From assembly GCA_030248295.1 (NCBI GenBank), contig JASANH010000902.1, positions 124,001-188,000 on the forward strand: DNA of 64,000 bases, given 5' to 3'. This document shows, one piece after another, positions 7,122 to 58,930 of the stretch (the stretch's first letter is position 1; every line of letters begins with the position of its first letter). Made by a program: the position numbers and the translations under genes. Under the pieces are notes generated by a model. It searched no databases. It had not been told where the DNA came from and worked only from the letters and a program-made list of their open reading frames with translations. The DNA is from Mesodorylaimus sp. YZB2_4 (Eukaryota; Nematoda; Enoplea; Dorylaimida; Dorylaimidae).

Positions 7122-7129
7122 GGCCACAC

Positions 7130-7252
7130 CTGGCAAAGGCAGCACACTCGAGGGGGTCGTCAGCGACGAGTCACAAGTAAATGGGCACACAACCCACGGG
7201 CCAGTCACAGACAACAGCACGCTAGCAGCAACGTTTACTCATAGCCAAGTCA
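7130..7252 (-). promoter_or_regulatory. Short intercistronic spacer with splice acceptor, possible trans-splice site
   Basis: Between the stop of the ureohydrolase gene (7253) and the WDR55 start (7121) the minus strand ends in a pyrimidine-rich TGCCTTTGCCAG, with AG at 7131-7130. No donor pairing with it is obvious in the spacer. In nematodes this layout is typical of operon genes receiving a spliced leader. A 5'-UTR cis-intron is the alternative. Confidence 0.5.
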
Positions 7253-10292: not shown

Positions 10293-13200
10293 ATGTCGGC
10301 GGAAAAAGTGCCACCCTCATCAACATCGCCGAGCCACATCGACCTCGGGCGACACGTGTCGTTCGTGGAGCCCGACGAGCCGTTCGCTGACGACGATCTG
10401 ATGACCGAATCGCAAGAAGGTACGTGCCTGTTCCAACTGCATAAGGCCTTTCGGCACTAAAACGAAATTATCTTTTTTACCAAATCTTTTTATTTTTCCA
10501 GTTCTGCAGCTTATCTTGAGAAAGAAAATTCAAATTTCGCGTGACCAAAAGTTTCAAAACGCTACCAAAGATTTGTGACAGCGAACAGGTGTTTTTTCAG
10601 ACGTTCTGGATTGTATGGAGGGCACTGAGAAGAACTATTTAGAAAGGGACGATTTCGAGTGCGAACTAGGTTCACCCGCCGAGGATTCGTGGTCGGAGGA
10701 CTTCACCGATATCGCCGCCTACGAAATCGTGGACGTGATCGGCGATGATCGGGCCGGTCGACCAGTGGTCGTCATTTACGCATATCGATTGCCCGCCCAC
10801 ACTCCTTCCGCAGATCCCACCCGTCCGTTCGACCATCAGAAGTTTCTGCGGTAAGTCGAATCTGGGTGGCTTGGGAGTCAGGTCTTCCTGTGTCAGCAGA
10901 AGGTTGAAGACAATGTGCGCTCTAGAATCGATGTAGGAATATTGAAAAAGTAACACGAGATTCAGCTTCAACACCCACTTTTAACAGGGGTAGTCAAAAT
11001 TCTGCACCTATGCGAAAAGTCGAAATCATTGATTGCAAAGGGGGATCGTTGGGGAATGAGAATTATGACTTTTTCAATAAATAAGATTTTGGTCCTAAAT
11101 TTTGGCTATTTTCTATGAAATGTGGTTGCTGAATATGAATATCATACTCTTTTAATATTCTGACATCGACTCTAGAATGCACTCCGCCTTTCACTCGTGT
11201 GTCTTTCAGTGCAACAAATCGTGAATATTGGATCAGCGTGACAATATATTATTTTTTGCAGGTATTTGATGCACACTTTGGACAAATTCGTTGAGCAGGA
11301 TTATACAATCGTGTATTTTCACTACGGTCTTCGCAGCTACAACAAACCGTCCACGAGGTGGTTGGTGCAAGCCTATCGTTTATTGGATCGGAAATATAAA
11401 AAGAATTTAAAAGCGCTGTATTTGGTTCATCCGACGAGGTTTATAAAAATCGTATGGACCATGTTCCGGCCATTTATTAGCGCCAAATTTGAACGGAAAA
11501 TGCAATACGTTAATTATTTGCACGAATTGAGAGAACAATTACATTGCGATCAGTTAGTCGTGCCTAAGGAAGTGGAAGAGTAAGTTGCAGTGCACCACTC
11601 CAGCATCCGAATCCTAGCCTTAGGCCAAGAGGGGTCTAGATTTTTTTCGGGTGCTTAGGAACTTTGTACCATAACTATAACAACACGCAACAAAAACTGG
11701 AAAAAATGACCCTTATCCTGAACTGTCGTGATAAGACGACTTTGATGCAAAATGGCGAAGACGCAGATTCTTTTTAATCAGCTTGAGTGCCCTCTGCATG
11801 GCCCCACATCCATCCATGATGAGGGTTTTGGAACTGAGTTTTCTAACGGATTCTCTTGGTTTTCTTCGCGACAATGCGCGATGTAGTGCACTTTTGGAAT
11901 TCTAATTTTTTGCCACGGAAGCATCGATTAATGGGCAGTTCTTGCTTGTGGGGTTGTGGAATGTTTCGCCGAGGCGAACATGGTGCTAATTCGCTACAGT
12001 CAGTCATCGAATCTGTCAGATCTGCGCTTCGTACAATGTTGGTGAAGAGGCTTGGTGATTTTTTTACGCATGTTCGAATTCAAGAAAAATGTTTTAATTT
12101 TTTTAAATAGTGACTTTAAAAAATAATTAAGTTTCCTGCTGAGTTCCGCAATTTACATTGGATGACAGCACATAGTTGTCTGGTTTTCTCTCGATGTAAA
12201 ACACACTCAGGGCATCTTTTGCAACTTTTGTGTGAGGCTGAGGGGGGCTTTGTAAGGACATCCACGAGGAATTGCCCCCTCATCATCCCGATTTAGTCCT
12301 TATTTGGACTCCGTCTCCATCAGTTTTGACCTGTAGGCTACCACTGACCGAAAATATCGGCTACTACCAATCGTTTTTCCTGCCAGTAATGGCGAGACTG
12401 TGGATTTCGCAGACGATTATAGTTTTAGGCGAATTAGTAGTTGTCTGCTGAGAGTGAGTATGACGAGTTCAACCTGCAGCTAGTCGGGGGAGAATTATCG
12501 ATTTCCTCTGACTGGGATGCGTCAATGTCTCGGGTTGAATATTTCAGCCAGGGTTGCACGAGGAACAGGGAGCTGGATTTTGGCCGAAAAGTAAAGTGCC
12601 CAAGAAAAGCCTGGCCTGATTTGTCTTGCTGGTATGACCGTGACCATGCTGCTGGTAGCAATGACGAGTAGGAGATCTCTCCTGACTGGAATGTGTCAAC
12701 TCAAGTATGTATGGGCAAGGGGGGCCGGCCAGGACATTGAACCCTTCCTCTCGAACCCCCCCACCTTAGGTCCAGCGGGAAGAAAGAAAAGGAAGCACGC
12801 AAAAGCGATCAAATTGTGTGGGCAGGACCAAAACGTGACCTGACTGACCAAGTCTTGGTCTCCAAGCACAGGCCGATTGTCCAGCCACCCTACAGTACTC
12901 TATGTAAACAGTCGTACAACTCACTCACTCGATTCGACTTAAACCTGACTTCTCACACGCGATCAGATCAGGCTTAGGCGATCTGATCTGATCTCTACCC
13001 CCTCCTCCCCCCCAAACCCCCCTCTAACCCAGCTGACCTTGCCCATACTTGGTCAACCTCTTGGCCAGCATCGACCGATCCGACCATAGGCCTGGGTCCT
13101 GATCTTTATCCGACTGATCCGCTTTATAAGGGTTGGTGGGGGAGTTTCGAACGTGCGTGGGCTCAGGGAATGGTAAGCAAGGAGGATTCGGTACTCCAAC

Positions 13201-15812
13201 AGCTGCGGCAGGTCTACTTGCTTATTTTGTTTTATACCCATGCCTTATTTCGCACAAAACAAATCCGGACAGGCAGAAATTACATGGTGATCTGACAAAA
13301 ACTTAAATTTCCCGCCAAAAGTTAGTTTGTACAGTATAGGATGCTGATGATTGCCTTATCGAAAGAACCTGCTCATGTAAGGACTGACCACATGGCAGCC
13401 AGTCTGTCATCGTCTGAACTAGGAGATCCTGGACCAGGCTCGTTTATATGAAAGCCTGTCTGTCGGACAGCCGAACCTGTCCTCCCCGTTTGACTTGTGT
13501 CTTTGTGGTCGTAGCACCCGACAATGCGTGATGAGGCACCCTTTGCAGGGTGAGAATACGTATTGTCCCCCGCAAAGGGGGACAATACGTGATGAAGCAC
13601 TATAACCCTCGCGGACCCCATGCAGGGTCCGCGAGGGTTATGGCTCGCGCAAAGTAACCTCCATCACCAGGAATTGAACCTGGGCGAGACGTAGATTGTA
13701 GACGAACACCAAACCGCTGCACCACCGCAGCCCCGGGGTTGGGGAAGGGGTCTCGATGCTTTCCATTGCAGCCTTGCATAAAGATTAGATAGCAGTCTGT
13801 GGACCATATTACGTACTGTAGGATAGCATTGGTCTACTTGGCTTGTCTTGCAAGTCATATTCTGATCACAATGGGCGTCGAGGCGTCTGTAACTCTTGTC
13901 GCAAGAATGATGGTCCTGTGTGGTGTGTCCATTGGGAGAGGCAGAAACCCCCAGTAGCAAAAACTGTCATGGACCCTATCCCCAGCTCTGGGTCTGAAAA
14001 ATCATGCCTACACCAAAGACTTTGGATTTCGAAAAAAAATCTAATGAATTATTGCTAGCTGCTATCGCAGTTTTTCAAAAAATACCCAGACATACAGATT
14101 TTACGCCAAGAAAGGAATGAAAAGAATTCATCATAAATCGCCTGCCTTGCAATGCTCTGCACACTTGATGCAATATTTGGAAGCAGCATGCCAGGTTTGC
14201 AAAGCGCTGCCCACCGAGGCCAGCGAAATCCGCAACTCAAAGAGAGCTTCCTGGCTGAATGGTATCAGAAAGTGTGCTGGCTGCTGGCCTTTGGAATGAA
14301 ACGTAGCAGTGAATGACGCATTAATTTTCATTTTGTGTTAAGACTTGTCAATTGTGACTGCCCCTAATTAATCGGGCCTACACTCAGGCATTAACCTTTG
14401 GCGACCTTTGTCAGGCGGGAATGTATTTAAGAGGATGCCTAAGCCAGTTTGTCCATTGCGAAGTCGGCCATTTCATTTAGTGCTTGTTTTTTCTTCTTTC
14501 AGTCACGATCGGACGTTACTAATGCGCGGCAAAATACAAGCCAAGCCGCCTCCCATCAAGCAATTATTGCCGACCCAGCAGTTCGGTGTCACCTTGTCTT
14601 AGTGAGTGGTGGGCTTGCTTCTTGAAAATTTTTGCCTTGTGTCACCAGAGACAGGCCCTGACCTTGCGAGGATTTCTACGCGCAAGCTGTTATCCCCTTG
14701 CCTTTCATAGTGATGCCTTGCGGGCCATGGCGCGTGGAGAGAATTGATCTCCCCTTGCTGAGAGACATCAACTCGTCGGGTCGATGTTTCAGTCGCAAGA
14801 CTTGCCTCACTCGAGTGGGAGTTTTGCCAGGCTTGGTTATAGTAGTCTGCCAACTCGCACTGTGCGCCATTTTCAGCATTCTTAAAAATCAAGGGGGCGC
14901 GAAACTGCCGCCGATCGTGGTCGAATTGACGGAATATCTGTTGGCCGAAGGATTGCTAACGCCGGGCATATTCCGTCGATCGGTGACTGTGAGCGAGGTG
15001 CGCCAAACTCAAGAACGGATCAATCGTGGTAAGTTTAGTGAAGCCTGAGGGAAGAAAGTGGCATTTTATGGACATCCCTCAGTCCATGACTGTCCGCTGA
15101 CTTTCAGGGGAAAAAATCAATTTCCGTCAATACGACAATCCGCATTTGGCCGCGGTGCTTTTGAAGACGTTTCTACGAGAATTGGCCGAGCCAGTGATGA
15201 CGTTCGCTTTGTATTCTGAAGTATTGAAAACTCAAGGTCAGTCGAGTTGATTTCTGATGTGCAAGCGATTTGTGGTTTATGTTATTGGTAATTCATTTCA
15301 GAGCTGCCTCAGGATCAACGAACGGGTGCCATAAAGGCGCTAGTATCGAAATTGCCAGCAGAAAATTACGCTTTGCTATATCATATCACTAAATTTTTGA
15401 CTGAGGTATGTGATTGCCTCGATAACTTCGCTTGATGCGCATCCTGCTGCTGCCACGGCAATAGCGTACTTGTGGCGCGACGGTTAGTGCAGACACACGA
15501 GAGAGCGTCTGGTAAGAGTCAGAAACTCGAGCCGTGAGTGGGATTCGAACCCTTTGTAACACCAGTCTGACAAACTAGCAGCTGCACCAGTGTGACTTGC
15601 TGTGTTCTGACAGGTTTTGTTTCAAAGCTAGTGGCATTTAGGTGATGGCTCGTTGCGATGCTAATTTAATGAATGCCAACAACCTAGCAATTGTTTTTGG
15701 TCCGAATTTGGCCTGGCCTGGCGACGAGCAAGTGGGATTAGTTCATGTGAATCAATTGACCAATTTCACGTATCGTCTGTTGACCAATTGGGCGGAAATA
15801 TTTGGATCGTGA
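10293..15812 (+). CDS. ARHGAP1: p50RhoGAP: SEC14/CRAL-TRIO plus RhoGAP domain protein
   Basis: Cytosolic GTPase-activating protein for Rho/Cdc42-type GTPases. Eight exons: 10293-10419, 10601-10850, 11262-11579, 14503-14601, 14877-15028, 15108-15236, 15302-15405 and 15642-15812. All have GT-AG borders and consistent phases, giving 449 residues (human 439). After an acidic N-terminal tail, a SEC14/CRAL-TRIO domain spans about residues 80-231 ([36 protein letters not shown]). A proline-rich linker leads to QQFGV and a RhoGAP domain at about 258-449. Catalytic features are present: the arginine finger in PGIFRRS (about R298), [12 protein letters not shown], and [13 protein letters not shown]. Intron 3 (2.9 kb) is full of dispersed repeats. 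Three SEC14-less relatives lie 7-22 kb downstream on the other strand. Confidence 0.96.
13656..13733 (-). repeat. tRNA-like element (second SINE-type family) in ARHGAP1 intron 3
   Basis: The minus strand carries an A-box-like TGGTGCAGCGG and, about 40 bases on, a B-box GGTTCAATTCC. The 3' side does not pair with the 5' acceptor-stem sequence GGCTGCG, so this is a tRNA-derived repeat or pseudogene rather than a working tRNA gene. Confidence 0.6.
14738..14840 (+). repeat. Dispersed hairpin repeat copy in ARHGAP1 intron 4
   Basis: The core CATCAACTCGTCGGGTCGATG can fold on itself and is followed by TTTCAGTCGCAAGACTTGCC and a TCGAGTGGGAGTTTTTG-like word shared with the other copies. Confidence 0.65.
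15527..15598 (-). repeat. tRNA-like element in ARHGAP1 intron 7
   Basis: The minus strand has A-box-like TGGTGCAGCTG and a perfect B-box GGTTCGAATCC, resembling the copy near 13.7 kb. No closed acceptor stem is visible, so a functional tRNA is not claimed. Confidence 0.55.
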
Positions 15813-22709: not shown

Positions 22710-24370
22710 TCAGGGACCGAAAATCAAATCGAAATCGGCGATTAATCGATACACGAAATTAGTCAGCTGCTTGCACCGCACCCGTTCGACCTGATGGTCT
22801 CTGGGCCTGGCCAGACTAGGGCCTAGAACTATGGCCAGGTTGTTCGCGTTCATTTGGTTCGTGTCACTGTTGGCTTGCACCTGAAAAAAGGAGGTGCAAT
22901 AGAATACTGAAAGAAGAATGGAAAAAATAGTGTTTTTCAACATCTTTTGCAAAAATCTAACTTTCAGGGAAAAGCAGTTTGCAGGACACAAGCTCACAAA
23001 TGCCAGCTCATACAAGTTTGGTGCTGATATCTAGCTTTCTTCGAGATGTTCGAGGTTCTGGCTTCCACGGCCGAGTGGTACTACTGACATCCAAGGGTTT
23101 CACTTCTATGCAGAACGGGGAGCCAATGAACGCTAGACAGCAGCAGGGAAGCAAAAGCCCTATTCTACCCATGTTCTTATTCCAAGCCAGTCGAAGGTGG
23201 ATCTGTATGTAAAGCAGGCGGAAATCAACTCCTCCTGCTTCCATGTTTCATGTGAAATCAAAATCGTGATGGAATTCTCAGAACATATTTAGAATGTGGG
23301 TGAACTAGTGTGACTACTTCCAAAAAATCTCACTCCAAGTAAGAGCTATGAAACCATAAAACAGAATTCTACGCCATCATAAAACTCGTACTGGGAACCA
23401 TTTTTGTGCACTAAGTCAAGCACCTGCGTCAAAAATTGTATAATGTGATGCAGCAGCACCAAATTTCGAGTTGGCAACTTGGTCAGTACGTCCTTGATGG
23501 CTGTCGTTTGATGATGTTTCGGCAATTCTGAAAATGAATTATGCGGCCCATAACTGGGGTCAGTTGGGGGCAGTGCACTCACTGTCAACACGCGCGATGT
23601 CTGAATACAGCTCGAACGTGATCAGCGGTTCGGGCAGCTCTCTTAGGAACATCTTCAATAGAGCGGCAGCCAAGTGAGGATTGTCACTTTGGTGGAAATC
23701 AAATTTTTCCCCTGAGAATGAAATTTGCCTGCACTTTCGATTTTTAGTCCTTTAGCAGATTAGTATTTTTGAGCAAGCGGCATGGTTTACTCATACAAAA
23801 ACTGTGTTAAACTTTATTGGTGTGCAACAATATATTTCCGCTAAAAATAGAAGAGTGCCGACATGAATTTTTGAGTGAGATAAGGATTCTGGCTTATGAA
23901 GCAGTCTCCTGGCATGGAGGAAGACAGAAGGGACGACTTACCACAGTCGATCCTGTCGCGCATTTGAAGCAGTTCGGTAAGACTGACCGATCGGCGGAAT
24001 AAGCCTTGGGTCTGCAGGCCTCTGTCCAGCAGATATTCGGTCAGCTGCACGATGACAGGCGGCAAGGTGGCGCCTGGGTTATTTTCGAGGATGCTACAAA
24101 AGAAACCACGATTAGTCACGCTCGCTGCTGGGCTATCTGCACATCCCCAGGTTGGTGCAAGTGCACAGAAAACATAATCGTGACCAGAACCAACCCCGGT
24201 TATGGATCTACCAGGAAAAGTCAGTCAACAAATAGGCGCAGATTAGATGGGAAGTCCCCCCCAAATTCTGACCTACTGCACACTCAGTAAGCATACCAAG
24301 ACAGCGACACTCCAAACTGCCGCGTGGGTGCATGCTGCCGGGCCGTCCTCGACTGGATCGTTCCGCACAT
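22710..24370 (-). CDS. RhoGAP-only paralogue 1 of ARHGAP1
   Basis: Five exons on the minus strand: 24297-24370, 23942-24093, 23583-23711, 23424-23527 and 22710-22880. The last four are 152, 129, 104 and 171 bases, identical in length and phase to ARHGAP1 exons 5-8, so origin by duplication is clear. The product is about 209 residues: a short N-terminus (MCGTIQSRTARQ) then RhoGAP only. The arginine-finger motif is QGLFRRS and LLKMFLRELPEPL is intact, but FGPNL has become LGPSL. No SEC14 exons are found upstream. The start corresponds to an internal methionine of ARHGAP1 exon 4. Frame is open throughout, so it may be functional. It is the most diverged of the three copies. Confidence 0.82.
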
Positions 24371-26722
24371 TGTAAATCCCGAAGGGTAAAATCGAGTGTG
24401 ACTAGAATGGTGCTGTTCACTCGGTCGGACTGGCAGGTGCAGGCTAATTTCTGCGAACACCTCGAAAACAATCGAGGAGACTCGTCAGAAAGACCTGAAA
24501 ATTTAACCTATATAATTACCACAGCTCTATCTTTTTGTTTCCATTGCTGTTAAGTTGAAAGACTCTATTCTGTATCGTTTTCGGCCTAGAAAATGTTAAT
24601 TGCCCTCCGACAGCCGCGTTTTGCGCCTACGCCTAATTAATTAGAAAGATCGTCAAGCATCGAAATTTTTCCATTTGTTTGAAATTTGATGTAAGAGCAA
24701 GTAACTTTTCTGTCAAGACGTCAGCTGCCGCAATCTGCCGACTTCCTCAAACGCAAAGGCATTCTCAATTGATCTCTCTTTCATAAATTTCCTTGTGCGT
24801 GAGCTAATCCCTTCGAATTCATGCTTCGACTGTGTCCTTTCTGACTTTTTTCGAAGAATACAATTTTGATTGTAATGATGGCTTCCTGATTTTGGTATTG
24901 TTGTAGAATATATTGTCTCAAAGACTCAGGCTTTGACTATGAATGAGACAAAAGAAAATTGGCTCGCTTTGTGCTATGCACTTTCAAATTACAGGTGACT
25001 CGAGGACTTTTCCAACAAAATGCCTGTCCGCAATGACATCCAGCAACTAGCGTCAGCACAAAGGCAACGAGCAGTCCCGGCTTGGTGACAAATAGAATGA
25101 GATCTGTGCAAGGATGCTCAGAGTTGGTTTCAGTTGCCATTCAATGAATTTCTAATCTTTTATGTGACATTGGCGGCCTGCAAAGGGTATGAGAGGTACA
25201 AGCAGTATGTATGTTGGTCGAGATGGTCAAATGGTTGCCTCGATATCCCCCGTCCACTCAGCACCCAATCCCTCGCACGTCTGCCAAGCAATCAAATTTC
25301 TGAAATACATTCATCTAGTTCAGCAGATGTGGACAGTGGGGAAACTGTTGGCATGTTCATGGTTTTCTAAATCTTGCGGCTTGTGCAACCCTCGCGCCCG
25401 GAGGGCATTGGCGAGTTGGAGAGAGTAATCGGTCCTCCCTGGGTGGGAGACGACAACCTTTCGGGTTGATGTTCCATCCGAAGTGTAGTAGGTGTGTTTG
25501 ACCTGTGAAGAGAGTACCGTACTGCATTTAGTTGCCTTGGTTGGCCACTCGACACCCTCCTCCAGGCCTGGCAGAAACCCGTCGGGTATGTCTCAGGCAC
25601 CTACGACTAGGTGACCTGCCAGGAGGGTTTTAAGTCCATCCGCTCCCCGCGATATCTTCTCCAATGTAGGGCTAAGTCGCCCATTACAGAAGGTATAGCC
25701 GGGAGATTTGCCTGCTCCAATCAAGATTTCTGCCCACCGACTTTTCCTCACTCCTACGCGCCAGGCTTGGTTGCACTCTGACCCTGTGCCGCCCAGTTGG
25801 ACACCCTGCCAGTTTTGCCTGGCACGGTAAGCAGTCATGGTATGATAAGCAAGATAAGCTGCCTCTGACATCTCCGCAAGGAGCGCCCCGCACCAGCGTC
25901 CCCAGAATGTACTGGGCGGAAAGAGAGGGGCCGTCCAGTCTGCAATTTGACATACGGGGCGAGTCGGCCAGAGCCAGATGTGGAAGGGTCAATGGACTCG
26001 CGAATACTAGACATGCCATTCAAGACAGGTTCCAACTCCTAAAACCCTCGCTGACCTGCCGTTCCAGCCTGGATGAAACTGCCACCCCTGCGGGTCAGGG
26101 TTGCTGACCCGAGCAACGAGGGACCAGCGTCCCAACCACCCGAGCCATTGCGGCTATTTGTCGGGCTCAGGCCGAAAAGTGCTGCCAAGGTGACGGGTGA
26201 AATTACTCAAAAAGGACCGAGAGCACAATTCCAACAGAAAGCAGTAATGTTCTGTGGCGCACCAGTCCAGATTGTGTCTGGAAATTCAAACTGAGTGGAT
26301 TTCAGCGTCGTTTGCGGCTCGCTCTGGAATCAAACTGGCCATAGTTATGGAACCATTAATGCTAAATATAGCAAGCATCCATGTCTTGGTTGACCTAGTC
26401 GACTTACAACACTTTTTGCCTGAGACATCGCAGTTTCATCAATTGTAATTGCTGGGCTCAAGACTCATCAAAACCAAGGCCAGAAGACTATTGAAACCGA
26501 CCTGGGATCGCACTCTCGCCCCTGGAATTACTGACTCACGAGCAGTGCAAGTCTGCTGAATCGACTTGTTCCTAGTTCGTGCGTGGCAGAAACATTGAAC
26601 AAATGCGACTAGCAGCTTCTGTTCATGTTCGTGAGCATAAGTTGAAGGGGATACCACGACATGAGTGAACCAAAAAAGAACAGCAAACCAATTCTCAACG
26701 TGTTCTCCGACTCGAGGTGTCG
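24371..26722. other. Repeat-bearing intergenic region
   Basis: It contains a dispersed hairpin repeat at about 25415-25600 (CAACCTTTCGGGTTGATGTT, a clean hairpin) and a related fragment near 25720-25790. I recognise no coding exon. Confidence 0.4.
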
Positions 26723-26728
26723 TATAAA
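26723..26728 (+). promoter_or_regulatory. TATA box of the secreted cysteine-rich gene at 26814
   Basis: TATAAA in the context CGTATAAATCAG lies about 85 bases before the preferred ATG, a normal core-promoter distance allowing a short leader. Confidence 0.5.
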
Positions 26729-26813
26729 TCAGTTCCGTGATCATCCGTGAGTCTTTGCCGAGAGAGTAAGAAATTCAGCTGTGGATCAGACACGGCAAAC
26801 TTCCGGAGTAAAC

Positions 26814-27044
26814 ATGGAGTCATTTAAAAAACGGAAAATTCAAGCTCTTTTGTTTCATTTCGTGAATCTCTTCCTTTTCGTCATTCGTTACGCATTTGCT
26901 GATTGTTTCGAGTGCGGGCCTGGCACAATGCGTGATTATAAGTCAGCATGTTTGTCTACGTCTACGATCGAAAGTCCAAGTCGTTTTGATGACTTGGATT
27001 GTAACTGCGTCAAGTGCCACCTATTTACCACGTCTAGGGACTAG
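26814..27044 (+). CDS. Putative small secreted cysteine-rich protein
   Basis: A 76-residue single-exon frame. MESFKKRKIQ is followed by a hydrophobic core (LLFHFVNLFLFVIRYAFA) that reads as a signal sequence, then CFECGPGTMRDYKSAC and CNCVKC, giving six cysteines in the mature part. The ATG at 26814 has an AAAC-ATG-G context; an in-frame ATG at 26781 is an alternative. A TATA box lies at 26723. I recognise no family. The spacing of the CxxC pairs loosely recalls small Ly6-like domains, but that is not enough for a name. A decayed relative seems to lie near 35.3-35.5 kb. Confidence 0.45.
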   Translation: MESFKKRKIQALLFHFVNLFLFVIRYAFADCFECGPGTMRDYKSACLSTSTIESPSRFDDLDCNCVKCHLFTTSRD

Positions 27045-27616
27045 GAATTAATTGCATGGGAGTCCAGGATGCTTATCGGCGGCTAACTTGTGCCAGTAGT
27101 GACCAGCCCAGCCCACAAGATTGCCGTGCATTCTCAAAATCTCTCCCCTCGGCATTAATTTACTGGAACTACAGGATGCGAATTACTTGGTCGGGTGCGT
27201 TTTCCGGTTCAGTCCGATGTATCGACCAGCACAAAAACAGTGAGGCCGTTGATTTCGTGTAATTTGCGCACCAGTCCAAGAGTCATAGTTCTTTAGCCCC
27301 AAGCTTCGTCTGTGCAAACAATAACCGCTTAAATGCTGTTTTCTCCTCGAGTTCTCGAAGTGCGTCGAAGTTGGGGACACTGTTTCCCGCTGCAGTACAA
27401 TCACCCATGACTCGACGCGCTTCATAGCGAAAAGACGGAACAGCATACTAAATGCCATAAAAATGACTAAAAACCAGACGATTCGGAAACACGACTCACA
27501 AACATAGGATACAGGGCCCAGCATATGAGCAAGAAACAAATATCAATGCAATATCCAGCCTCGATTTCAAAGCCAGCTGCAAGAATGTCGTCCAGTCTCC
27601 TCAGACCCACTCAGGG

Positions 27617-29550
27617 TCATTGGCCGAATATTGCATGGAAGTTTGTGATAATGCAATGCGTGAAGTTGATTAGATGCGCGCAGTGCTCCAACCCGACTTG
27701 CTGGCCACTCGGCCAAGCCAGATTAGGGGCGATCACGATGGCCAAATTGGTCCCGTTCATTTGATTAGTATGCCAGTGGGACTCGACCTGAAAGAAGACA
27801 GGTCGAAAAGTGAATAAAAATGCGACAAAATGTGGCAGCAATTCACCAGTCCGGCAATCATTTCTTCCGTGCAGGTCGCTGCTGGGAGGGGAATTGTCAG
27901 CGGCAAGATTACGAAGTTTCTGACTTGAGTTGTTGTGCTTTGGGTACTTGGTTTTTTTTATCTCATTGTAGTTGAGTAACTTAAAATTTTTTAAATATTG
28001 GGTTGCGAAGAAAGATATGAGCCGGAGTCATGCGAAGGAAAAAGATGTTTTATCGAATTTTAGTTAGAAATGTCTTTTTTGGACACTTGTGAAATCGACT
28101 TGCTGAACCAACTGTGAAAATGTTTTGAACCGACTGCGACTGGTCTCTCGACAATTTCATACCTGTGTCAAAAATTCAGTGATATGACGCAGCAGGGCGT
28201 AGTTTTTAGCTGGCAGCTTCGTCAGAAGAGCTTTGACTGCTGTCGTTTGTTGGTGCTTCGGCAATTCTGAAACAACCAGCGGCTACTTTGCTACTGTAAC
28301 GCACAAATGATATTCTTACTGTCAATGCGCACAATTTCAGAATAGTGGGCGAACGTCATCAGCGGCTCGGGCAATTCTCGCAGAAACATTTTCAGCAGGG
28401 CGGCAGCCAAGTGGGGATTGTCGTATTCGTGAAAATCAATTTTTTCGCCTGAAATGCAGGGCCTTATTGACGTGTAACATATAATCTTAATAAACCAGGA
28501 GAGATCTCTTAAACTGCAAGTTCTTTCTTAAGACAGTTAGTTTACGCCTAACCCACCGGCCTCGTGGCCTGGTGGAGGCGTCTGCCTCTCACGCCGGGTG
28601 CGCAGTTACGGGCGAGTGTTCGACTCGCGGGCCGGTAAATTATTTGGTGTCCCTCCACCCTCGAGTGCGCATACGCGTTTGGTGATGCGGTAAAACATGA
28701 ACATGAACATGAACACTTATCTTGGTATGCCCTTCCCATCTTGATCATTTCTCCCTCAAACAGCATCACCAGCGAGCTGCAACCAAGGCTGTATGTACAG
28801 CCAACCAGGGCCCCTCAAGTTGTAAGTCATAGGGTGAAAACGTTAAAACAATGAGTTGATGCACTGGATGGGTGTTTTGGCGGATTTTTGGAAAATACTT
28901 TAGTTCTTCAGTATAAGTCGCACTCAAATCAATCGCAACTTTTAGTTGTTCCATTACATAACTTTCTCCCCAAGACAGGAAGGAATTATTTTAGATTGTC
29001 TGTTAATCAAAAACCGTTAAATTTCGAGGAAAGCAGAGCACAAGCAAAATCTGCCAAGACACGGGGTTCTAGCAGACACGTATGGAAAGTTGGTCCTCCA
29101 CAATTTTCCAACCAGCACGCCTCTGCTCAGTACAGATTACTTTTGGTACACTCACACCTAATTGCTAGGACTTGTCACTGCACCTGATAAGACACACTCA
29201 CCCTTGTTTATTCTGTCTCGCATTTGACGCAGTTCTCTGGCACTGGCCGATCGACGAAGTAATCCTGGCGTTTGCAGTCCTTTGGCCAGCAGATATTCGG
29301 TCAGTTGCTCAACGATGGGCGGCAGAGTGGCGTCTGGGTTGTTTTCGAGAATGCTATCAAAGAAACCAGGGTTACTCACAGAGTGGTGAGACCATCTGCA
29401 CATTCGATCAGTTTGGTGCTGGTGGCAGGAAAGTCGTGCAGAACCAACCACAATCTGCACCTACTGGGACAGCGGCACCCCGAACTGCTGCGTGGCTGGC
29501 AGCCTGGGCGCCTTGGTCAGCATTTTGCCGAACATCGTAAAGTCGAACAT
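27617..29550 (-). CDS. RhoGAP-only paralogue 2 of ARHGAP1
   Basis: Five exons: 29465-29550, 29202-29353, 28320-28448, 28163-28266 and 27617-27787. The last four have the ARHGAP1 lengths 152/129/104/171. The product is 213 residues. It starts MFDFTMFGKMLTKAPRLP, preceded by an in-frame TGA, so a new start was gained where ARHGAP1 exon 4 begins. QQFGVPLS precedes the RhoGAP domain. The finger motif reads PGLLRRS, with the usual aromatic residue changed to Leu while the arginine is kept. LLKMFLRELPEPL and MNGTNLAIVIAPNL follow. A SINE (28552-28714) sits in the intron between the 129 and 152 base exons. The gene is closely related to copy 3, and the duplication includes 5' flanking DNA. Confidence 0.85.
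28552..28714 (+). repeat. tRNA-derived SINE, best-preserved copy
   Basis: Order of parts: GGCCTCGTGGCCTGGTGG (A-box-like TGGCCTGGTGG), GTCTGCCTCTCACGCCGGG, B-box-like GTGTTCGACTCGC, then a unique body with CCACCCTCGAGTGCGC, and a 3' tail of ATGAAC-type repeats. The head is tRNA-like but the 3' part is not, as in tRNA-derived SINEs. Confidence 0.8.
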
Positions 29551-29654
29551 GGACGGAGAATTTCTCGTTCAGATGCCTCCTGCTCAACAGTCCTAAAGAA
29601 GTTTAGATGGGAGTCGAGGATCCCTTTCCTTCGAAGCCCCTTTACTTGTAAACT

Positions 29655-29850
29655 GGCCAGAAAATTACATTGCAATTGCGACAGCCCAGATTTGAGAAGA
29701 ATTCTCATAAAACAAAGCAGCACATATTTTAATTGCGCCTCGTTTAATTGAAGAATGGATGAATGTTTTGCTATAATTTGCTGGAAGCGAGGAAATGTTA
29801 ATTGCCTGACCAACAATGGCATTGTTAACAGGAATGCCGGAAATCATCAG
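29655..29850 (-). repeat. Duplicated 5' flank of RhoGAP paralogue 2
   Basis: About 190 bases nearly identical to 38055-38246, each lying upstream of its own RhoGAP-only gene. The minus strand of both keeps a roughly 60-codon open frame starting MISGIPVNNAIVG. Close identity of the DNA itself makes shared recent ancestry, perhaps of promoter or 5' UTR, the simpler reading. Confidence 0.7.
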
Positions 29851-31954
29851 GTTAATCTTTTGTGAACTCGTTTGTTCTCGGTGCTCGTCTGGCTTTCAGG
29901 CGCTCCAGTCCGCCCGTTCTGCCCAAGCTGAGAGCACAATGTAGCACTTTCTTCTGGTTCCCGCCTTTTGTGTCCAAAACGAGAGTGGCGACCGCGGGGC
30001 AGCCTGGCGCCGGGAGGTTTTTCTGAACTGCTCTTCACGCAGCGAGCAATCTATTTCGTGTCCACTCTCTGCTGGATGCCAGGGTGAAGCACCTGGGACG
30101 CGTGTATGTGATAGGATTCCTCCACGATGATGGAAAGCATTCGTTCTTTATCGTGGCGCCTGACTGACTGTGAGAGAAGCTGATTTGGTGGGTCTCATGT
30201 CACTGCTCCATAAGCATCTTCAGTTGCTCCGGCCGAGCGCCGATGAGGGTACAAAAGCACTGAATAATCACTCGGTCAGACTCGAAACAGGGCACTCTCG
30301 GCTGGCACAAGGTTTGAGTCGCGCGCGACGACCGCCAGGATTTCTGGCGCCGGCGATAAAGGCAGCAATGAAAGCATAAAAAAAGCGCAAACTAATCCTG
30401 ACTAAAGGAAAAACAGGTGCTCACACAAAATGCGCCTGGTGCATCTGGACTAAACAAAAACAAATGCAATGGACAGTAGGCACTCGAAAATCGAGGAGGA
30501 TCACACACCCGATCACAAACAGGAGCAGTGGTTGGAGTGTTTTTCAATGAGATCGGATAAAGTAGGACGTTTTGTACGATTGTAAAATTTCTTGGAAACA
30601 GTGAATGGAATGATTTCAGTTTTTGATCTGGGAGCTCACTGAACCAGAAGAGTCTGCGACGCGCACGAATTGAAGCGCAAGTGGGGTTTTAGGTCCAATA
30701 AAATTTTTACTTGAGAGCAGGTACTCGCAATCGTGATTGCAGCCGTTGAATCAGTATAGCCAGGTTTGTCCCGTGCAGGGCGTGGAAGGTGTGAGAAATG
30801 CATTCGGCTTCTTATATCAATAATGCTTTTCTGCCTATCCTAATACATTACACGTATTCCCTAGTCCAAAGGCCCGTGGTTCGAGTCGTAGCTCCACCGA
30901 GTGTTCTCTAAACCTGATACCCTCTTCACCGCTGCCCATTACTTAGCGACCTGAGGGAAAGCAATCTTGGCGTGGTGGCTTTACTCGAATGTCTTCGTGA
31001 GAGAGAAGTTGGGAGGTTAGTGGAAGAGTCCCGCTTGGCCAGGGCTCCAGCTAGCACATTTTGACAGCGCGCAGAACTCTGAAAGTTGACCTTACGATCA
31101 ACACATTTTTGAGCAGTCGATTGAGTCCTTACCCACTCGCATCTTTAACCACCTTCAGAAAGATCTTCAGGGAATCAGAGGCAGCTTATCCAACAGGTGA
31201 TAAACTGGCGTGAGCCTCCGCATTCGGTGGCTGGACTCAAAAACAACCCTGAGACCCAAGAGGTATCCTGCTCATATCTCAGCGACCTTTCCCTTTTCGA
31301 GCTGCATTTAAAGTTAGCGAAGGCCAGTTCTTCAGACTTCTGTCCGAACTGACTGATTTTTAGAGATTAAACGATGGCAGTCATCATATTAGCGCTTGGT
31401 TGAAGGTGGAGTCAAATGATTCCAACTTTAACTGAGCGCTTTTCTCCAATCCGTTCCATCTGGCAGTAAGCGTGCAAGTAATAAGGCGAGTACAAGACCA
31501 GAGAAAGTGGGCCGACACGAGTAGGCGAGGGTCGCGAAAGTGGTCTTTACATCATACGTGATGGTTATGCATCAGCACTGCTCTTCTGAAGGGATCTCGT
31601 CTTCCCCATTTGTATTACATTTGCAAAATCATCGGCTGCTATGACGATCCCCGCCATTGCTTCTCGCTCTCATTCCACTCTCCGCCCAGTCGTTGGCTGT
31701 AGCTCCCTGCGGCTATTCTGGAATTCTTCTGTTCCCTGTGATTCGGTGCGCCTAATTGCTCGAGCCAAGCAGATTGAGGCAGCGAAGCTTGAACCCCCTG
31801 GCTCCTACCGTGCAGGGTTTGCATGACGAGCAGAAGCAATGAGATGGGAAGAATAGCAAGTATGTATACAGGTAGTCTAACCCGCACCTCCCAGCCAGGA
31901 GATCAATATCTCCCATTGGCCATGGCCCGTTGGCTGTGGATTCAAGTGGTGTTG
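29851..31954. other. Intergenic region without recognised genes
   Basis: Beyond 29850 similarity to the third RhoGAP copy stops. A B-box-like GTGGTTCGAGTCG occurs near 30870. No coding exon is supported. Confidence 0.35.
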
Positions 31955-31958
31955 CCGG

Positions 31959-33071
31959 TGTCATGACATAATGCGTCCGCCATCATAATGCGTCCGGCCG
32001 GACTCATTATGACGTCATAATGAGTCCGAGGGTGTCATAATGCGTCCGGGTGGCTCAAAAGCAACTAAGTCGATCCAAATGTAGAATGTACTGTCGTAAC
32101 ATCATATATCGTACCATATATCATCAAAACAAAGCAAAAGTCACCATGAATACAAAGGCACGAAATGATGCAAACGATTGACAATAAAAATCGCTTCATG
32201 TCGGCGGAGCACTCTTCCGTACTGTCGTAACATCATATATCATTAAAACAAAGCAAAAGTCACCATTTATACAAAGGCGCGAAATCATGCGAACGATTGA
32301 CAATAAAAATCGCTTCATCGGACGAACGAATCTTCAGCTTGAACTGGACCCAAGCAAACCCACTGACCTGTGGACCGTAACACCAAATTTCGGTCTCCAA
32401 TAGATCCGCAGCAACTTGCAACTCGACATCTGAGCCCCACGAGCATTAAAGCAGCATCATCTTACCGATTTTCATTCTCAGTTTCGTGGAGTGGACTGAC
32501 CAAATCGATGCACCATCGGAAAAACAGATCGGACGTGACGGCGATGGGATGAAGACTTGCTACTTCAGGTCGGTTGTTCGGATTGGCCATCTGACATGGA
32601 CAACAGGCTTTGATAAAAGCCTCGACGTCCTTGGAGCAACCAGGCCACCAGTAGCGCTCCGCAATTTTCCTGAAAAAAAAGCACTCTGATTCTTCAGTCG
32701 AAACGTAAAACAGAGCAACACTTACTCCCACGTCTTCCGAATTCCAAAGTGACCACTACCCAGCCCGCTGTTATCCGTTTTCGTTATCCGTTGCTCCTTC
32801 TGGATACTTTCCATCGGCCAAATAAGAAACGATCTTATCCCTTTCGGACAGCTCCATTGGACTGAGAATATTCAACACAAACACCTCAGCCGACAAATCA
32901 AGCGCCTTTGTCCAGGTCTTTGTTCTCAACACTGACCCCGGACGCAATATGATTGCCTCGGACGCATTATGATGACCGCTGGCCAATCATAATGCGTCCG
33001 GCCGGACTCATTATGACGTCATAATGAGTTCGGCCGGACGCTTTATGATGAGGACGCATTATGACGGGACA
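31959..33071 (-). mobile_element. Ginger-like DNA transposon with gypsy-type integrase remnant and spliceosomal intron
   Basis: The ends TGTC...GACA are inverted (TGTCATGACATAATGCGTCC against TGTCCCGTCATAATGCGTCC). They are flanked by CCGG at 31955-31958 and 33072-33075, and both have subterminal palindromes with CGGCCGGACTCATTATGACG. The minus strand codes SERDKIVSYLADGKYPEGAT (32771-32986 frame). After a short frameshift or deletion comes GHFGIRKTWE, ending at 32726. A 56-base GT-AG intron (32670-32725) follows, then 32466-32669 with ERYWWPGCSKDVEAFIKACC and RWCIDLVSPL. This is the H2C2 zinc-binding region and start of the core of a Ty3/gypsy-type integrase. Terminal inverted repeats plus such an integrase define Ginger elements. 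The catalytic core is missing, so this copy is defective. A gypsy fragment caught in another element is the alternative. Confidence 0.65.
32088..32325. repeat. Two tandem copies of a roughly 105-130 bp unit inside the Ginger-like element
   Basis: Both units share ACTGTCGTAACATCATATAT, AACAAAGCAAAAGTCACCAT and GATTGACAATAAAAATCGCT. The second lacks a short duplicated ATATATC piece found in the first. Confidence 0.75.
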
Positions 33072-33075
33072 CCGG

Positions 33076-35298
33076 CGCTCCTAAACTCCCTGACTTTTTT
33101 AAGCTCGTATGGACCCGAAAAATAGACTTCCACTTGAAGCATAGCCTACCTGGGGGCGGGGAGGGGGGGGGGGGTAAGTCTTTGGGATGGCCCTTTAGGT
33201 AAGTCAATTTTCAAAGACACCTCACATCTGACATTTCCGAGATGTCATGCATCTTAATTTCCTAATACAGAAATCATCAAATCAGGCTCTAACAAAGAAA
33301 AAGCTTGGGATAAATGCTTCTCTTGGTGACTATTAAAAGCAAAAATAGCTTTTCGAGCTAGCGGTGAGAGGCTTCGATCTTGGGGTTGGAATTCCGCGAA
33401 AAGGTATTGGAAGATTTCGAGGGGGAGAATTTCCAGGAGATACGGTATCTAAGCACCCAAAAGATAAGATACAGATATACGTACTCATTTGCAAAAAGAT
33501 ATACTGTAGATATAACTACGACATTGATATCCATGTCTCAAAAGATATGAAGTTTCATTAAATATATAAATATAGATGCATATATATATCAACACTTGCT
33601 TGGTGAAACCATGTCATGTTGCTGATTAGGATGCAGCGGACCACAGGACAGACGGAAGGATTCCCTGCATGAGTTTATGATGGGAGGCACTTGCTTGATA
33701 ACGATTAGATAAGCTGATTAGGCAAAGCTCTAATACTTGTAACGCCCGAGCCCATCTAGGGCCCTTACGGAAAAACCATTACTTACCCGGAAGTCCCCTT
33801 ATTCGACCGCTCTCCGCCAGAAGGCCCTCAAAAGAGCCCCCGAGTCACTCAAAAACTCTCCTTATCTAGACGCAGCTATAACCAGCATCCCTGGCGGTTG
33901 GGAGTAATCGATCCGCTCCCGTGGCTAGGACGTCAACCTCTTCGGTCGCGAGACTTGCCTTCCTCCAGTCGGACTTCCGTCTCGACTATCTCCCGCCGCC
34001 TGGGTGCGCTGGTTACAAAGCGCAGCAAGAGCACTCAAATACATCGTTGTTTTTGCATACATAGCGCGGTTCAAGTACTCATGCAAAGCTCCGGCTGGAA
34101 CTGAGGATAAGTTTTCTCGTTTGAGAATGACACAAAGCGTGTGATCATACTTGACGCGAATTTTATTTCAGATAAAACACGACACCTGTAATAAAAGGAA
34201 GTTGGATAGGTTCGTATCGAATGGATACTTCTTAGTGGTTATTATCAAATGGCGACACAATCATTTGACTCGATCATCAAAGGCTTTGTCTTTCGACCGC
34301 TTATTCGAAGGTTCTTTTGCGTCAGGCAAGTATTTTTTGATGCTACCTAACTGATGTTCGACTTGGCCCTGATCTTCTGCGTGGTCTTTTGTATTGCGCT
34401 CAGTAATTCATATAATTTCAGGCATGGATGCAATCGCCCGGCTGTCCAGCAATATAGCACGCATTGTTTAAAAACTGGACGTTAGGTACTCCGAATCCAA
34501 AATGAGGCTAATAAACTGGAATCCTTTTATCGCTGTGTATCTTTTTGATGCGTATGTCGTAATGTTGTTGTACTCGTAGAATGCAAATATGGTAGTGGTA
34601 AACAATGATGAATAACAATTAGTAATAATGAAAAGACGAATTTTTTATTCCATGTAAGGAAAGCGATGAAATATCAACCAATGACGCCGCATTATAAACT
34701 GTCTAGTTTTGGTTTTGTGAAACTTGGGCACTTGCTTGCACAACTTTGCTCTTTCCATCAGCCGAGCGGCTGCCAATAGCGCGCCCGCGTCTATCCATAA
34801 TTTGCGCACGCGCGCCCTTATGTTTATCACGGTGGGTGAAAAACGTTTTGTAGGGAGTGGAAATACGCGTCTATGGCAGGCGATATTAGGTGGACTCAAG
34901 CATCGATCGCACCATCTTGCCTGATCGAGGTAAGCAGTTTGAACCTGCTGAGATATGAGAAATCCGCCGAAATTCAATTTTTTTTACTTGTCGAGGGTTG
35001 TCGGAAAGAAATGACCCCGAAGTCATTTTAATCGGGTGCGATTTTTCTCACTGCAAAGCGTACCTGCCTTAATTATGTGTGCGACTTTTTCGGATGTAAT
35101 CTAGACAGTCTTCGCCACCTAAAACACGTATATTCCAGATTATCCCTCGATGAATCACCAAATATGCAGTAACACTGACCTCGTGGTTATTTGACTGGGC
35201 ATGCTGGAAGGAGACGGTCCAAGTCGCCCCGAGAGGCATCCCGCCCACCTAATATTTTCTAGTTTTTCATTTGGGTCGTCATCACTCTCCAAATCGAA
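33076..35298. other. Intergenic region with low-complexity DNA and one dispersed repeat
   Basis: It includes a 12-base G run at 33163-33174 and an AT-rich stretch around 33470-33600. A dispersed hairpin repeat lies at about 33895-34020, ending TCTCCCGCCGCCTGGGTGCG. No exon is supported. Confidence 0.4.
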
Positions 35299-35640
35299 GT
35301 GAACACGTGTTCCATTATTTTCATGTCGCGCTGCCAATTCACTGTTTCATCGCGGAAGTCATGCACACACAAGCCGATGCGCAATAGTCCTGGGCCTGAA
35401 TATCTAAAAAGTGCAAAGGCGGTACAGGCTCAAGTCAACATGTTTGTCTCCGCAAATAGTCGAATGTCGACTCTCGCTGAGCACGGCTGCTCCTGATTTG
35501 CGGTCATCACACGCCTCCGTGACGACGCCCAGAGCACCGAGGAATTAATTGTGGGGAATGGCATGTTTCAGGCGACTAAATTGTTTTTGTATATAAGCAT
35601 CCCTGCCCACAAGATTGCAGTGCGCTCCACAACCGTCTCT
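35299..35640 (+). pseudogene. Decayed duplicate of the 26.8-27.13 kb secreted-gene region
   Basis: Ordered short matches to 26.88-27.13 kb include GGGCCTG, AAGTCA(G/A)CATGTTTGTCT, GGAATTAATTG and GCCCACAAGATTGC. They lie at matching distances from the third RhoGAP paralogue. The cysteine pattern of the secreted protein is lost. Homology is inferred from these words only. Confidence 0.4.
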
Positions 35641-36022
35641 CCTTTGTGTTCGTTTATCGGAACATTTGCTAGTTCCGCTATGCAGCTCGCAGCTGTTTAT
35701 CGTGTAGCCTGCGCTAAGCCCGGGTCTAACAATTATATCAATCATAGTTCTGTGCTGCGGTCTGCAGCGGGAATAAGATGTCTTTCTGGCCGCACAGTTC
35801 CGAGAAAAGTTGAGGAGTTATCGGCAACGATCACGACACAAATGCTCTTTGCTAGAGTCGCAGGGAAAAGAGATGAAACAGCTGATAACGGGGGTGAAGA
35901 GAAACTGACTTAATACGACAGGATAGGTCATACAAAGAAACAACAGATCGGGAAACAAAAATGCATTCCTCAAAGGTGCACAGTCATCTCACAATTTGTT
36001 TCACATTCCTTCCTAGATCCGC

Positions 36023-37943
36023 TCAGCGCCCAAAGATCGCATCAAAATTTATGATCATGCAGTAGGTGAAATGAACGAGATGTTTACAGTGCTCCAGTCC
36101 GACTTGCTGGTCACTCGGCCAGGCCAGGTTGGGACCCATCACTATGGCCAAATTGTTCGCATTCATTTGATTAATGTCGCAGCGGGACATGACCTGAAAA
36201 CAAAAACCCATGAGTCCCGAAAAAATTTTAAAGGCCTAGCAAGGGTTTCTACAGCAGATATGCAGAAAATGCTGCGGTGAACCAAACTGTGACCACCAAC
36301 AGATTGGGCTTTCGATACTCGTCTGCGGGCGGACATTAATTGCTACCGTTCTCATGTCAGTCATGCGCCGTACTCGCTATTAAAAACGAAGTACACTATC
36401 GAGTCGATGACTGAGTATTGAAAAAATATAATACTTACTCAGATGCAGAGCAGGTTTCAAGGGGACTAGCCAAAATTACCTGTGCAACAAAAGGCGAGAT
36501 TCTGGTTCGCAAAGGTGGACAATTAGGAAATAAAAATTTCGCCTTCTTTAATGTGATGGCAGTCAAAAATTCAGGCTATCCTCTCTAAAATGTGGGCGCC
36601 ATGTGTACAGCATTTTTTTTTCAATATTCTGACATCTGTTTTGGAGTGTACTTCGCCTTTGAGCTTTTTTTCATTTAATATCCCCGACATTACTTAAACT
36701 TTTACTTTCCCAAACGGCCAACCGATAGGATTTAAGTGTTGTGACGAAACTAAGCAGCCCAAGCGGACGAACCGCAGTGATCTACGGTCGACCGCAATTA
36801 CCCCCAAATCAACTGGTGCAGCTTGGGGGGGGGGGGGGGGGGGGCATTGTCAAGCCGCCAGCCAACGATGTGGTACCACAGGAAGAGGGGGGCGTTTTGG
36901 TCGACCGCAGATCACTGCGGTTCGCTTCAATACGGTTAACAAATAAAAGTGTCACTACTTGTTAAACTAACATGGGCTAGACATTTTTTGTGTATGGACC
37001 AAGTGGCAGCTGAGATTCAGACGAAACTCTAATTAATTAAGGCAATGGTAGAAACACGGCACCTGCGTCCAGAATTTAGCAATGTAATGCAGCAGGGCGT
37101 AGTTTTCAGCTGGCAGCTTTATCGCCACAGCCCTAATTGCTGCCGTTTGTTGGTGTTTCGGCAATTCTGAAAAGCAGTAGTTGTGCGAGACTACTGCATC
37201 AACGGCACAGCCACTCAGCTCTCACTTCCAATGCGCACAATTTCAGAATACAGATCGAACGTCATCAGCGGCTCAGGCAACTCTCGCAGAAACATTTTCA
37301 GGAGAGCAGCAGCCAAGTGGGGATTGTCATATTCGTGGAAATCAATCTTTACACCTGAAATGCAGAACAAAGAGGAGTTCCTAGAAGCTATATTTTATCA
37401 AGCAGGTCATTTAAATAGGGCGATACAAGTATCTTCGCATCTGCTCAGGGACAAAAAGTACCAAACTACTGCCTCATACCTCGAAATCCCTCTGAGTCGT
37501 GCAGATTTTTCCACTCAACACCCCCATCTTATGAAATAACGGGCTTTTGGGAAAAACTGTATGTCGTACGAATTTGATAACACGGACTCACCCTTGTTTA
37601 TTCTGTCTCGCATTTGACGCAGTTCTCTGGCACTGGCCGATCGACGAAATAAGCCCGGCGTTTGCAGTCCGTCGGCTAGCAGATATTCGGTCAGTTGCTC
37701 AACGATGGGCGGCAGGGCGGCGTCGTGGTTGTTTCTGAGAATGCTATAGAAGGAGCCATGATTAGTTGTCACTAACTGGCGGGCTATCATTCAGTCTGGC
37801 TGGTACAGGCGGCAAGGTGATCGTGCGTAAAAGACCGAGTGCTTGAGAGTCACCTACTGGGACAGTGGCACCCCGAACTGCTGCGTGGCCGGCAGCCTGG
37901 GCGCCTTGGTCTGCACTTTGCCGCACATCGTGAAGTCAAACAT
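36023..37943 (-). CDS. RhoGAP-only paralogue 3 of ARHGAP1
   Basis: Five exons: 37858-37943, 37592-37743, 37226-37354, 37063-37166 and 36023-36193, with lengths 86/152/129/104/171 exactly as in copy 2. The product is 213 residues starting MFDFTMCGKVQTKAPRLP, with an in-frame TGA just upstream. RhoGAP hallmarks are all present: PGLFRRS (arginine finger kept), LLKMFLRELPEPL and [16 protein letters not shown]. No SEC14 exon is found. The intron that carries a SINE in copy 2 is only 237 bases here. The 869-base intron before the last exon holds a foldback repeat with a poly-G centre. Confidence 0.86.
36741..36955. repeat. Foldback (MITE-like) repeat with 20-base G run, in an intron of RhoGAP paralogue 3
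   Basis: Arms around 36757-36792 and 36896-36930 are inverted (shared core GAACCGCAGTGATCT and GGTCGACC). The centre contains an uninterrupted run of 20 G at 36825-36844. It is absent from the matching, shorter intron of paralogue 2. Confidence 0.65.
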
Positions 37944-38054: not shown

Positions 38055-38246
38055 AGATCATTAAATAGCTATTGCGGCAGCCCAGATTTGAGAATTCTTA
38101 TAAAACAAAACAGCACATATTTTAATTGCGCCTCGTTTAATTGAAGAATGGATGAATGTTTTGCTGTAATTTTCTGGAAGCGAGGAAATGGTTATTGCCC
38201 GACCAACAATGGCATTGTTAACAGGAATGCCGGAAATCATCAGGTG
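38055..38246 (-). repeat. Duplicated 5' flank of RhoGAP paralogue 3
   Basis: Nearly identical to 29655-29850, sharing the words AATTGCGCCTCGTTTAATTG and AATGGCATTGTTAACAGG. It lies at a matching place upstream of its gene. Similarity ends at about 38246. Confidence 0.7.
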
Positions 38247-38747
38247 AACCTTCTGTAGCCCCCTCGCCCTCGGTGATCGTCTGCTATGGCTCCCCACATA
38301 TTCCGACCACAGCTCTATAGCTCGACCCCAAACACTGGCAGATCAGTGCTTTGAAGGTTGTTGTAGTCTCTTGTGACAGAAACGAGATTGTTAAAGTCTT
38401 TGTTCTAACCAGTCCATGCCGACGAATGCATTCGCCATTTTCCGTTGGCCAAGTCAGTTTCATATCAGCAGGTGATCGTGGCAGAAACTAAGCAGAACTA
38501 CAGTGCTTTGAACTTTTTACTTCTTGCGCTAAAACGCACAAAGCAAAAAGGCCCGTGTGCGACATTGCCAATACGTCAATTTCTCTCAGTGACACGCCAC
38601 AGGTTGAATGAGCTGATCTGACAAGCTACTTCTCTTGTAACCACAAGCATTCCGCGGCATCGCTGAGCGACCTGCAAACACTAGTTGCATGTATTCACTC
38701 GGTCAGACCTTGGTATTTTCCAATCATCTGCCCGTCACTTCACCAAA

Positions 38748-41785: not shown

Positions 41786-42040
41786 GGAGGGACACCCAGG
41801 ATCGACCGAACACGGTTTTTGCACCGGACCGAACCTTACCGAACTTTTTCTCAAATCTCACCGAACCCGAACCGAACCGGACCGAGCCGACCGAACCGAA
41901 CCTACCTACCGAACCGAACCGAATTTTTTTATGTTCACCCTTAGCACATCCTACATAAAGTATCATCATCTGTATCGAGTGCCATAAATAATGGCCCGCC
42001 AATGTTTCGTCTTCTACCAGCCTTAATCGCGGTAAATTCG

Positions 42041-53039: not shown

Positions 53040-53141
53040 CTAGCGTCACTTTGCAAAACGGGAGTCGCACCCCGATGAAGTAGGTGTCCACCCTGGTGGT
53101 GTGGAAGTGGTGTGGGACTAGTGTCAGTTGTCCGTTGCGAA

Positions 53142-57081: not shown

Positions 57082-57444
57082 TTTGAAGAACTTCTGATCG
57101 TGTTGGCTGCACAAACAGCCGTAGCTTTTACGTGCATCGAGCTAGTAACTTCCATGACGACTCGCTTATCAGTTTTATTGCACAGTAAAGAGCGTCTTGT
57201 TAATTTTTGTGAGTCTGGCCTATTTCGCAGTCTGATGTTGACAGACTCGGCTGTACGACCAGGTGCTGTGAGCAGCGACAGTAACTAACCATAATTACTA
57301 GACGATGCGACTCGGTGCATCCAATGCATGGGTGGTGACTGTAGTCCAACGGCAACTAGTGTTGGCAGCATGGGAGCTGTAGTCCAATGCACCATCACAA
57401 CAATCACAAAAATGTTATTTCCTATTTTATTTTCTTGGCTGTGT

Positions 57445-57555: not shown

Positions 57556-57586
57556 ATAAAGCCCACGCCGATATCGTCATCCAAAG

Positions 57587-58840: not shown

Positions 58841-58930
58841 TGGTGCCAGGTAGAAGACTTTCCGCAAGAATCACGCGATGGAAGCAGGACTCCCGCCGGC
58901 AGCAGACTTTTGACTTAGCGCACTAGCGCG

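Follow-up and report, generated by a model that had tools for sequence, protein, structure and literature searches.

The locus studied here lies in a 64,000-nt stretch of DNA from the nematode Mesodorylaimus sp. YZB2_4 (contig JASANH010000902.1; analysed at its full length and called the window below). In keeping with a nematode host, the profile search gave 133 matches to Col_cuticle_N, a domain that marks nematodes. It raises the question whether three short genes beside an ARHGAP1-like gene, each encoding the RhoGAP domain only, are remnants of a duplication or sources of free-standing proteins. The BCH domain of p50RhoGAP is described in PMC11090974 as autoinhibiting the GAP activity and as binding Rho and lipid, and one BCH-RhoGAP gene has been reported for Brugia and Caenorhabditis (PMC3313917). 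Nematode copies of ARHGAP1 reduced to the RhoGAP domain were not described in any paper found by a limited search of the open-licence literature.

Gene structure of the locus

The gene A1 (10615..15812, plus strand) is of the ARHGAP1/p50RhoGAP type, a SEC14(BCH)-RhoGAP gene. It has an open spliced frame with GT-AG introns and seven coding exons: 10615-10850, 11262-11579 (carrying CRAL_TRIO_2), 14503-14601, 14877-15028, 15108-15236, 15302-15405 and 15642-15812. The 99-nt exon 14503-14601 is numbered exon 4, and the last four exons measure 152, 129, 104 and 171 nt. The product, taken to start at the model's first Met, comprises 402 aa, in which Pfam recognised CRAL_TRIO_2 (E 1.6e-26) and RhoGAP (E 4.1e-40). 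On the minus strand and adjoining A1, WDR55-like WD40 frames and two frames belonging to one arginase-family gene (PF00491) occupy window positions 2736-8703. Further away, a plus-strand frame of 369 codons (53079-54188) contains two stretches matching Fn1_2 (fibronectin type I), and its start looks signal-like by eye; adjacent GNAT acetyltransferase-like frames lie on the minus strand at 55824-58870, and a scan of two of them gave Acetyltransf_18 in both.

The cluster of copies begins 6.9 kb from the 3' end of A1 and is oriented opposite to it. Gene c1 (22710..24370) has the exons 24297-24370, 23942-24093, 23583-23711, 23424-23527 and 22710-22880; c2 (27617..29550) has 29465-29550, 29202-29353, 28320-28448, 28163-28266 and 27617-27787; c3 (36023..37943) has 37858-37943, 37592-37743, 37226-37354, 37063-37166 and 36023-36193. 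In all three the first coding exon starts within the equivalent of A1 exon 4. An earlier reading, made from the letters alone (the sequence-only reading), had described three minus-strand genes that reuse the A1 exon lengths and phases and encode 209-213 residues. The lengths of 152, 129, 104 and 171 nt, the last including the stop codon, and the phases were exact in 3/3 copies, and the spliced frames were open over 209, 213 and 213 codons for c1, c2 and c3. The 13 intron positions counted in that reading have to be corrected to 12, four per copy, every one with GT-AG borders. Weak splice donors were seen at exon 7 of c1 (gtgctt) and c3 (gtgccg). Protein identity of the copies to A1 was 56.5, 60.6 and 63.5%.

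Between c2 and c3, window positions 31960-33080 contain repeated GGACGCATTATGACG-type motifs, recognised by eye, amid which 85-nt direct repeats start at 32115 and 32234; the region is possibly a mobile element. At 40640-41910, CCGAACCGAA / GGTTCGGT repeats form arrays, noted by eye, with part of the repeats facing each other.

RhoGAP domain and active site

The RhoGAP domain was present at full length in all three copies (Pfam E 1.5e-41 for c1, 2.3e-41 for c2 and 6.9e-43 for c3), and besides it no Pfam domain matched the three proteins. Scores against PF00620 were 142.2, 141.6 and 146.5 bits at a cut-off of 24.5, covering profile positions 1-147/148. The only copy submitted to a PDB comparison, c3, had p50RhoGAP as its best match (E 5e-43); by this match and by the exon lengths and phases the copies' domain is of the p50RhoGAP type with the parental exon structure. 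In the alignment R85, K122, R126, N188 and N194 (p50RhoGAP domain numbering), which we take to be important catalytic positions, were retained in 3/3 copies. The arginine finger, already noted as conserved in the sequence-only reading, is thereby confirmed at the column of human R85. Near the active site c2 carries two changes, F84L just before the finger and G200A. The N-termini MCGTIQS and MFDFTM did not resemble signal peptides by eye.

Translation starts and the missing SEC14 exons

Translation of c1 would start at the ATG equivalent to an internal Met of A1, that of c2 and c3 at a Met five codons earlier, in line with the proposed starts at or just before that Met; all three positions lie just ahead of the RhoGAP domain. 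The acceptor of A1 exon 4 (ttctttcag) had no AG counterpart in the aligned sequences of c2 and c3. SEC14 exons spliced in from further upstream, named beforehand as an observation that would speak against free-standing genes, found no support: c2 and c3 are closed by in-frame stops at 21 and 24 nt ahead of their ATGs, and inspection of the sequence between stop and ATG revealed no pyrimidine-tract acceptor. The c1 frame meets its nearest stop only after 117 nt, thus a 5' exon is possible for this copy, and the open stretch includes AG dinucleotides as possible acceptors, e.g., gtgttcgcag.

A PF13716 profile search of the whole genome gave four matches at E up to 0.001, the sole one on this contig being that of A1 itself. 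With A1 exons 2-3 as tblastn query, the window yielded A1 followed by a next best E of 0.70, and the best E in five further fetched stretches was 0.28. The claim that no CRAL-TRIO exon accompanies any copy was upheld by both searches. The N-terminal BCH/CRAL_TRIO domain that defines ARHGAP1 and the group-III BCH-RhoGAPs is absent from the copies, the case being weaker for c1.

Origin and age of the duplication

A tree rooted on human ARHGAP1 placed the copies in one clade beside A1 (support 91). Inside this clade c2 and c3 were united (support 83), and c1 was joined by c4, a further copy on contig C839 that entered the tree with exons 6-8 only (support 79); three placements of c4 had codon likelihoods within less than 2 units. 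The copies retain the introns of the parent and are therefore DNA-level copies; a processed, intronless retrocopy is ruled out by the four introns in each. Clade and introns together substantiate the proposed partial duplication. Maximum likelihood (ML) dS between A1 and the copies was 1.6-2.4, with NG86 undefined for two of the three, and amounted to 0.87 for c1-c2 and 0.36 for c2-c3. Since the A1-copy values are high or saturated and the others lower, an old partial duplication was followed by younger duplications. The derivation from the neighbouring ARHGAP1 gene thus holds as descent from its ancestor long ago, but not as a fresh duplication.

The c4 exons (L026 7645-8302) are open and have splice sites; exon 8 measures 177 nt. 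The c4 branch had an omega of 0.27, and omega = 1 was rejected (p 0.002). Neither exon 4 nor exon 5 could be located in L026 upstream of c4. Exon 4 and part of exon 5 are located about 7.6 kb downstream of c4 on the same strand (L027 5925-6249); here the exon 4 ATG and the conserved QLGVP stretch are in different frames, and exon 5 is interrupted by an in-frame stop. The pieces on C839 may represent one copy or two, in permuted order, and in its present state the locus cannot encode a complete RhoGAP. The sequence upstream of the C839 piece showed no similarity to that of the other copies, the scores being matched in 76 to 192 of 200 shuffles. A frame immediately preceding exon 4 on C839 (L027 about 5820-5924) resembles by eye a non-LTR reverse transcriptase (DVKKAFYRVHHSPILRNLE). 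RhoGAP-like matches on contig C293 were rejected as a further copy; in L023, tblastn with A1 and the copies as queries gave nothing at a cut-off of E 0.01.

Selection on the copies

Codon ML on A1, c1, c2 and c3 gave an omega of 0.287 for the copy branches and of 0.111 for the A1 branch; two ratios were superior to one (LRT 9.3, p 0.002), with the copies above A1. Fixing omega at 1 was rejected both when it was imposed on every copy branch at once (LRT 62.7, p 2e-15) and when it was imposed on the c2 and c3 tips jointly (LRT 30.0, p 4e-8). Single branches, tested against one background ratio, differed from omega = 1 with p 3e-4 for c1 and 0.04 for c3; p was 0.15 for c2 (omega 0.41), thus selection on c2 alone is not proven, and 0.27 for the internal branch. 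A neutral simulation, run without indels and on branch lengths rounded from pairwise dS, never left the three frames open together (0/4000 trials). The frame survived in 173/4000 trials on a single branch of c2 length and in 164/4000 on one of c3 length; over the path connecting c1 with the c2/c3 ancestor it did so in 5/4000. The suggestion that the open frames reflect selection is consequently sustained for the copies jointly, but not for c2 singly; a dN/dS near 1, the other observation that had been expected to speak against functional genes, was not seen for the copies jointly, while c2 by itself leaves room for it. Relaxed but real constraint fits these sequence comparisons best. Pseudogenes with broken frames or neutral evolution were rejected on the open frames and an omega below 1 for the copies jointly, with the exception of c2 tested singly.

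Elements upstream of the copies

A conserved block of 166 nt precedes c2 (29698..29863, minus strand) and c3 (38091..38256, minus strand), ends 147 nt before the ATG in both and is identical at 156/166 positions. It is more conserved than the spacer between block and ATG (109/144 identical, Fisher p 7e-6), the 4-fold sites (61/79, p 3.6e-4), the aligned parts of the second intron (195/237, p 4.6e-4) and of the fourth intron (284/374, p 1.4e-7) and all exons (542/642, p 8.8e-4). At full strength the block occurs upstream of c2 and c3 only: a genome search skipping very common words gave these two matches and no third, which rejects a dispersed repeat. A tRNA or Rfam RNA was likewise rejected, neither having a match in the window. 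One frame is stop-free in both copies of the block, yet seven of the ten differing codons change the residue, therefore a coding exon is not favoured. Gene conversion between c2 and c3 could be an alternative cause of the identity.

Both blocks enclose the perfect palindrome AACAATGGCATTGTT (29812-29826 upstream of c2, 38205-38219 upstream of c3), which resembles two facing SOX-type sites. Its two matches in the window compare with 0.02 expected, for a motif that was chosen from the block itself and whose two matches are copies of one another. The 14-mer GGCAATTAACATTT was taken as a shared motif because all three copies have it at the same place: exact upstream of c1 (24591..24604, minus strand) and c2 (29793-29806), with two mismatches upstream of c3 (38186-38199), the respective distances to the ATG being 221, 243 and 243 nt. 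The window holds three matches versus 0.89 expected, and at least three were reached by 5/100 shuffles. The upstream similarity score of c1 and c2 was reached by 0/200 shuffles, that of c1 and c3 by 4/200. Block and motif are likely a shared promoter region with promoter or regulatory function. An origin of the upstream element from A1 intron 3 was rejected as weak at best, the scores being reached by 118 (c1), 30 (c2) and 9 (c3) of 200 shuffles.

Interpretation of the cluster

The gene structure, the open frames, the joint selection, the catalytic residues, the absence of a SEC14 exon nearby and the upstream elements are directly supported. We consider it likely that an old partial duplication gave rise to free-standing RhoGAPs, probably active, that lack the known BCH brake. 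The ancestor of the SEC14(BCH)-RhoGAP gene would have been partly duplicated from exon 4 on in inverted orientation, and the duplicate would have multiplied locally, giving c1 and then c2/c3, and also have reached another contig at least once, where it appears to have decayed. As protein-coding genes with an upstream region of their own, c1-c3 would be transcribed and presumably translated from the Met that shortly precedes the RhoGAP domain; each would yield a catalytically complete RhoGAP without BCH/SEC14 and probably with GAP activity. Such products may act as unrestrained GAPs that have lost autoinhibition and membrane targeting along with that membrane anchor. They would reduce Rho/Cdc42/Rac-GTP in the places and at the times at which their own promoters drive expression; since they begin at the GAP domain and lack brake and anchor, we infer that output is set by expression. 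Points that weigh against this view are the single-branch result of c2 and the marginal one of c3, the two c2 changes near the active site, the weak exon 7 donors of c1 and c3, the decayed relative on C839, the limitation of the full-strength block to c2 and c3 together with its possible origin by gene conversion, and the higher omega of the copies compared with A1.

The elevated omega of the copies relative to A1 and the F84L and G200A changes of c2 would also suit proteins that were made and selected, although not as GAPs, binding Rho GTPases (or A1) as decoys or modulators. SRGAP2C and most wasp venom RhoGAPs provide precedents (PMC8156310, PMC13301370). Against such a role stand the five checked catalytic residues, kept in all three copies, while nearly all wasp copies described in PMC13301370 have lost the arginine; we regard decoys as unlikely. 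The genes might instead be longer than seen, with unrelated 5' exons spliced to exon 4 or 5 and RhoGAPs with a new N-terminal part as products. The open 117 nt before the c1 ATG with their AG dinucleotides and the stop-free block frame of c2 and c3 are compatible with this; however, the close in-frame stops of c2 and c3, with no pyrimidine-tract acceptor seen in between, and the residue changes in the block frame, unlike those of a selected exon, make such longer genes quite improbable. Recent silencing or a pseudogene state of the copies, with frames still open by chance and selection only in the past, has in its favour the single-branch result of c2 and the decayed relative on C839, and is very improbable in view of the joint rejection for the c2 and c3 tips, the 12/12 GT-AG introns and the rarity of open frames under neutrality, both for a branch of c2 length and for all three together.

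Relation to known RhoGAP duplicates

Partial duplicates of RhoGAP genes are already known from human ARHGAP11B and SRGAP2B/C and from parasitoid wasps (PMC8156310, PMC13301370). The nematode copies differ from these cases in having kept a whole, catalytically complete GAP domain and lost the regulatory half. With ARHGAP1/p50RhoGAP/Cdc42GAP (group-III BCH-RhoGAP) they share the RhoGAP domain, the catalytic residues and the exon structure of A1, but BCH/SEC14 and the first part of the linker are missing from them. ARHGAP11B is similarly a DNA-level partial duplicate of a RhoGAP gene with a shortened protein; according to PMC8156310, however, it keeps the first 8 of 12 exons and its truncated RhoGAP is inactive in vivo, whereas the nematode copies keep the 3' part with the domain complete. 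SRGAP2B and SRGAP2C, also partial duplicates of a RhoGAP gene, have retained most of the F-BAR and lost the RhoGAP domain (PMC8156310), the mirror image of the nematode copies. The Leptopilina venom and Venturia calyx RhoGAPs, derived from RacGAP1, form a RhoGAP-domain multigene family as well, and in the Leptopilina venom proteins the coiled coil and C1 motifs of the parent are lost (PMC13301370). In contrast to c1-c3, whose N-termini are not signal-like by eye, the Leptopilina copies are described as having gained a signal peptide, and nearly all Leptopilina and Venturia copies as being without the catalytic arginine (PMC13301370), which is present in 3/3 nematode copies.

A more far-reaching view, which we put forward tentatively and hold to be possible rather than probable, is that the cluster constitutes a naturally occurring group of p50RhoGAPs without their brake, fully catalytic and relieved of BCH autoinhibition and of lipid targeting, long selected and under a shared new promoter (the block with the palindromic AACAATG.CATTGTT), by which a nematode lineage may have made a regulated GAP into a small expression-regulated family. 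The locus adds an animal case to the pattern of useful partial duplicates from RhoGAP genes. If the products are active, it would represent an evolutionary test of the role of BCH/SEC14, in which a single genome offers the same catalytic domain both braked and unbraked, and the nematode host could make this comparison genetically tractable.
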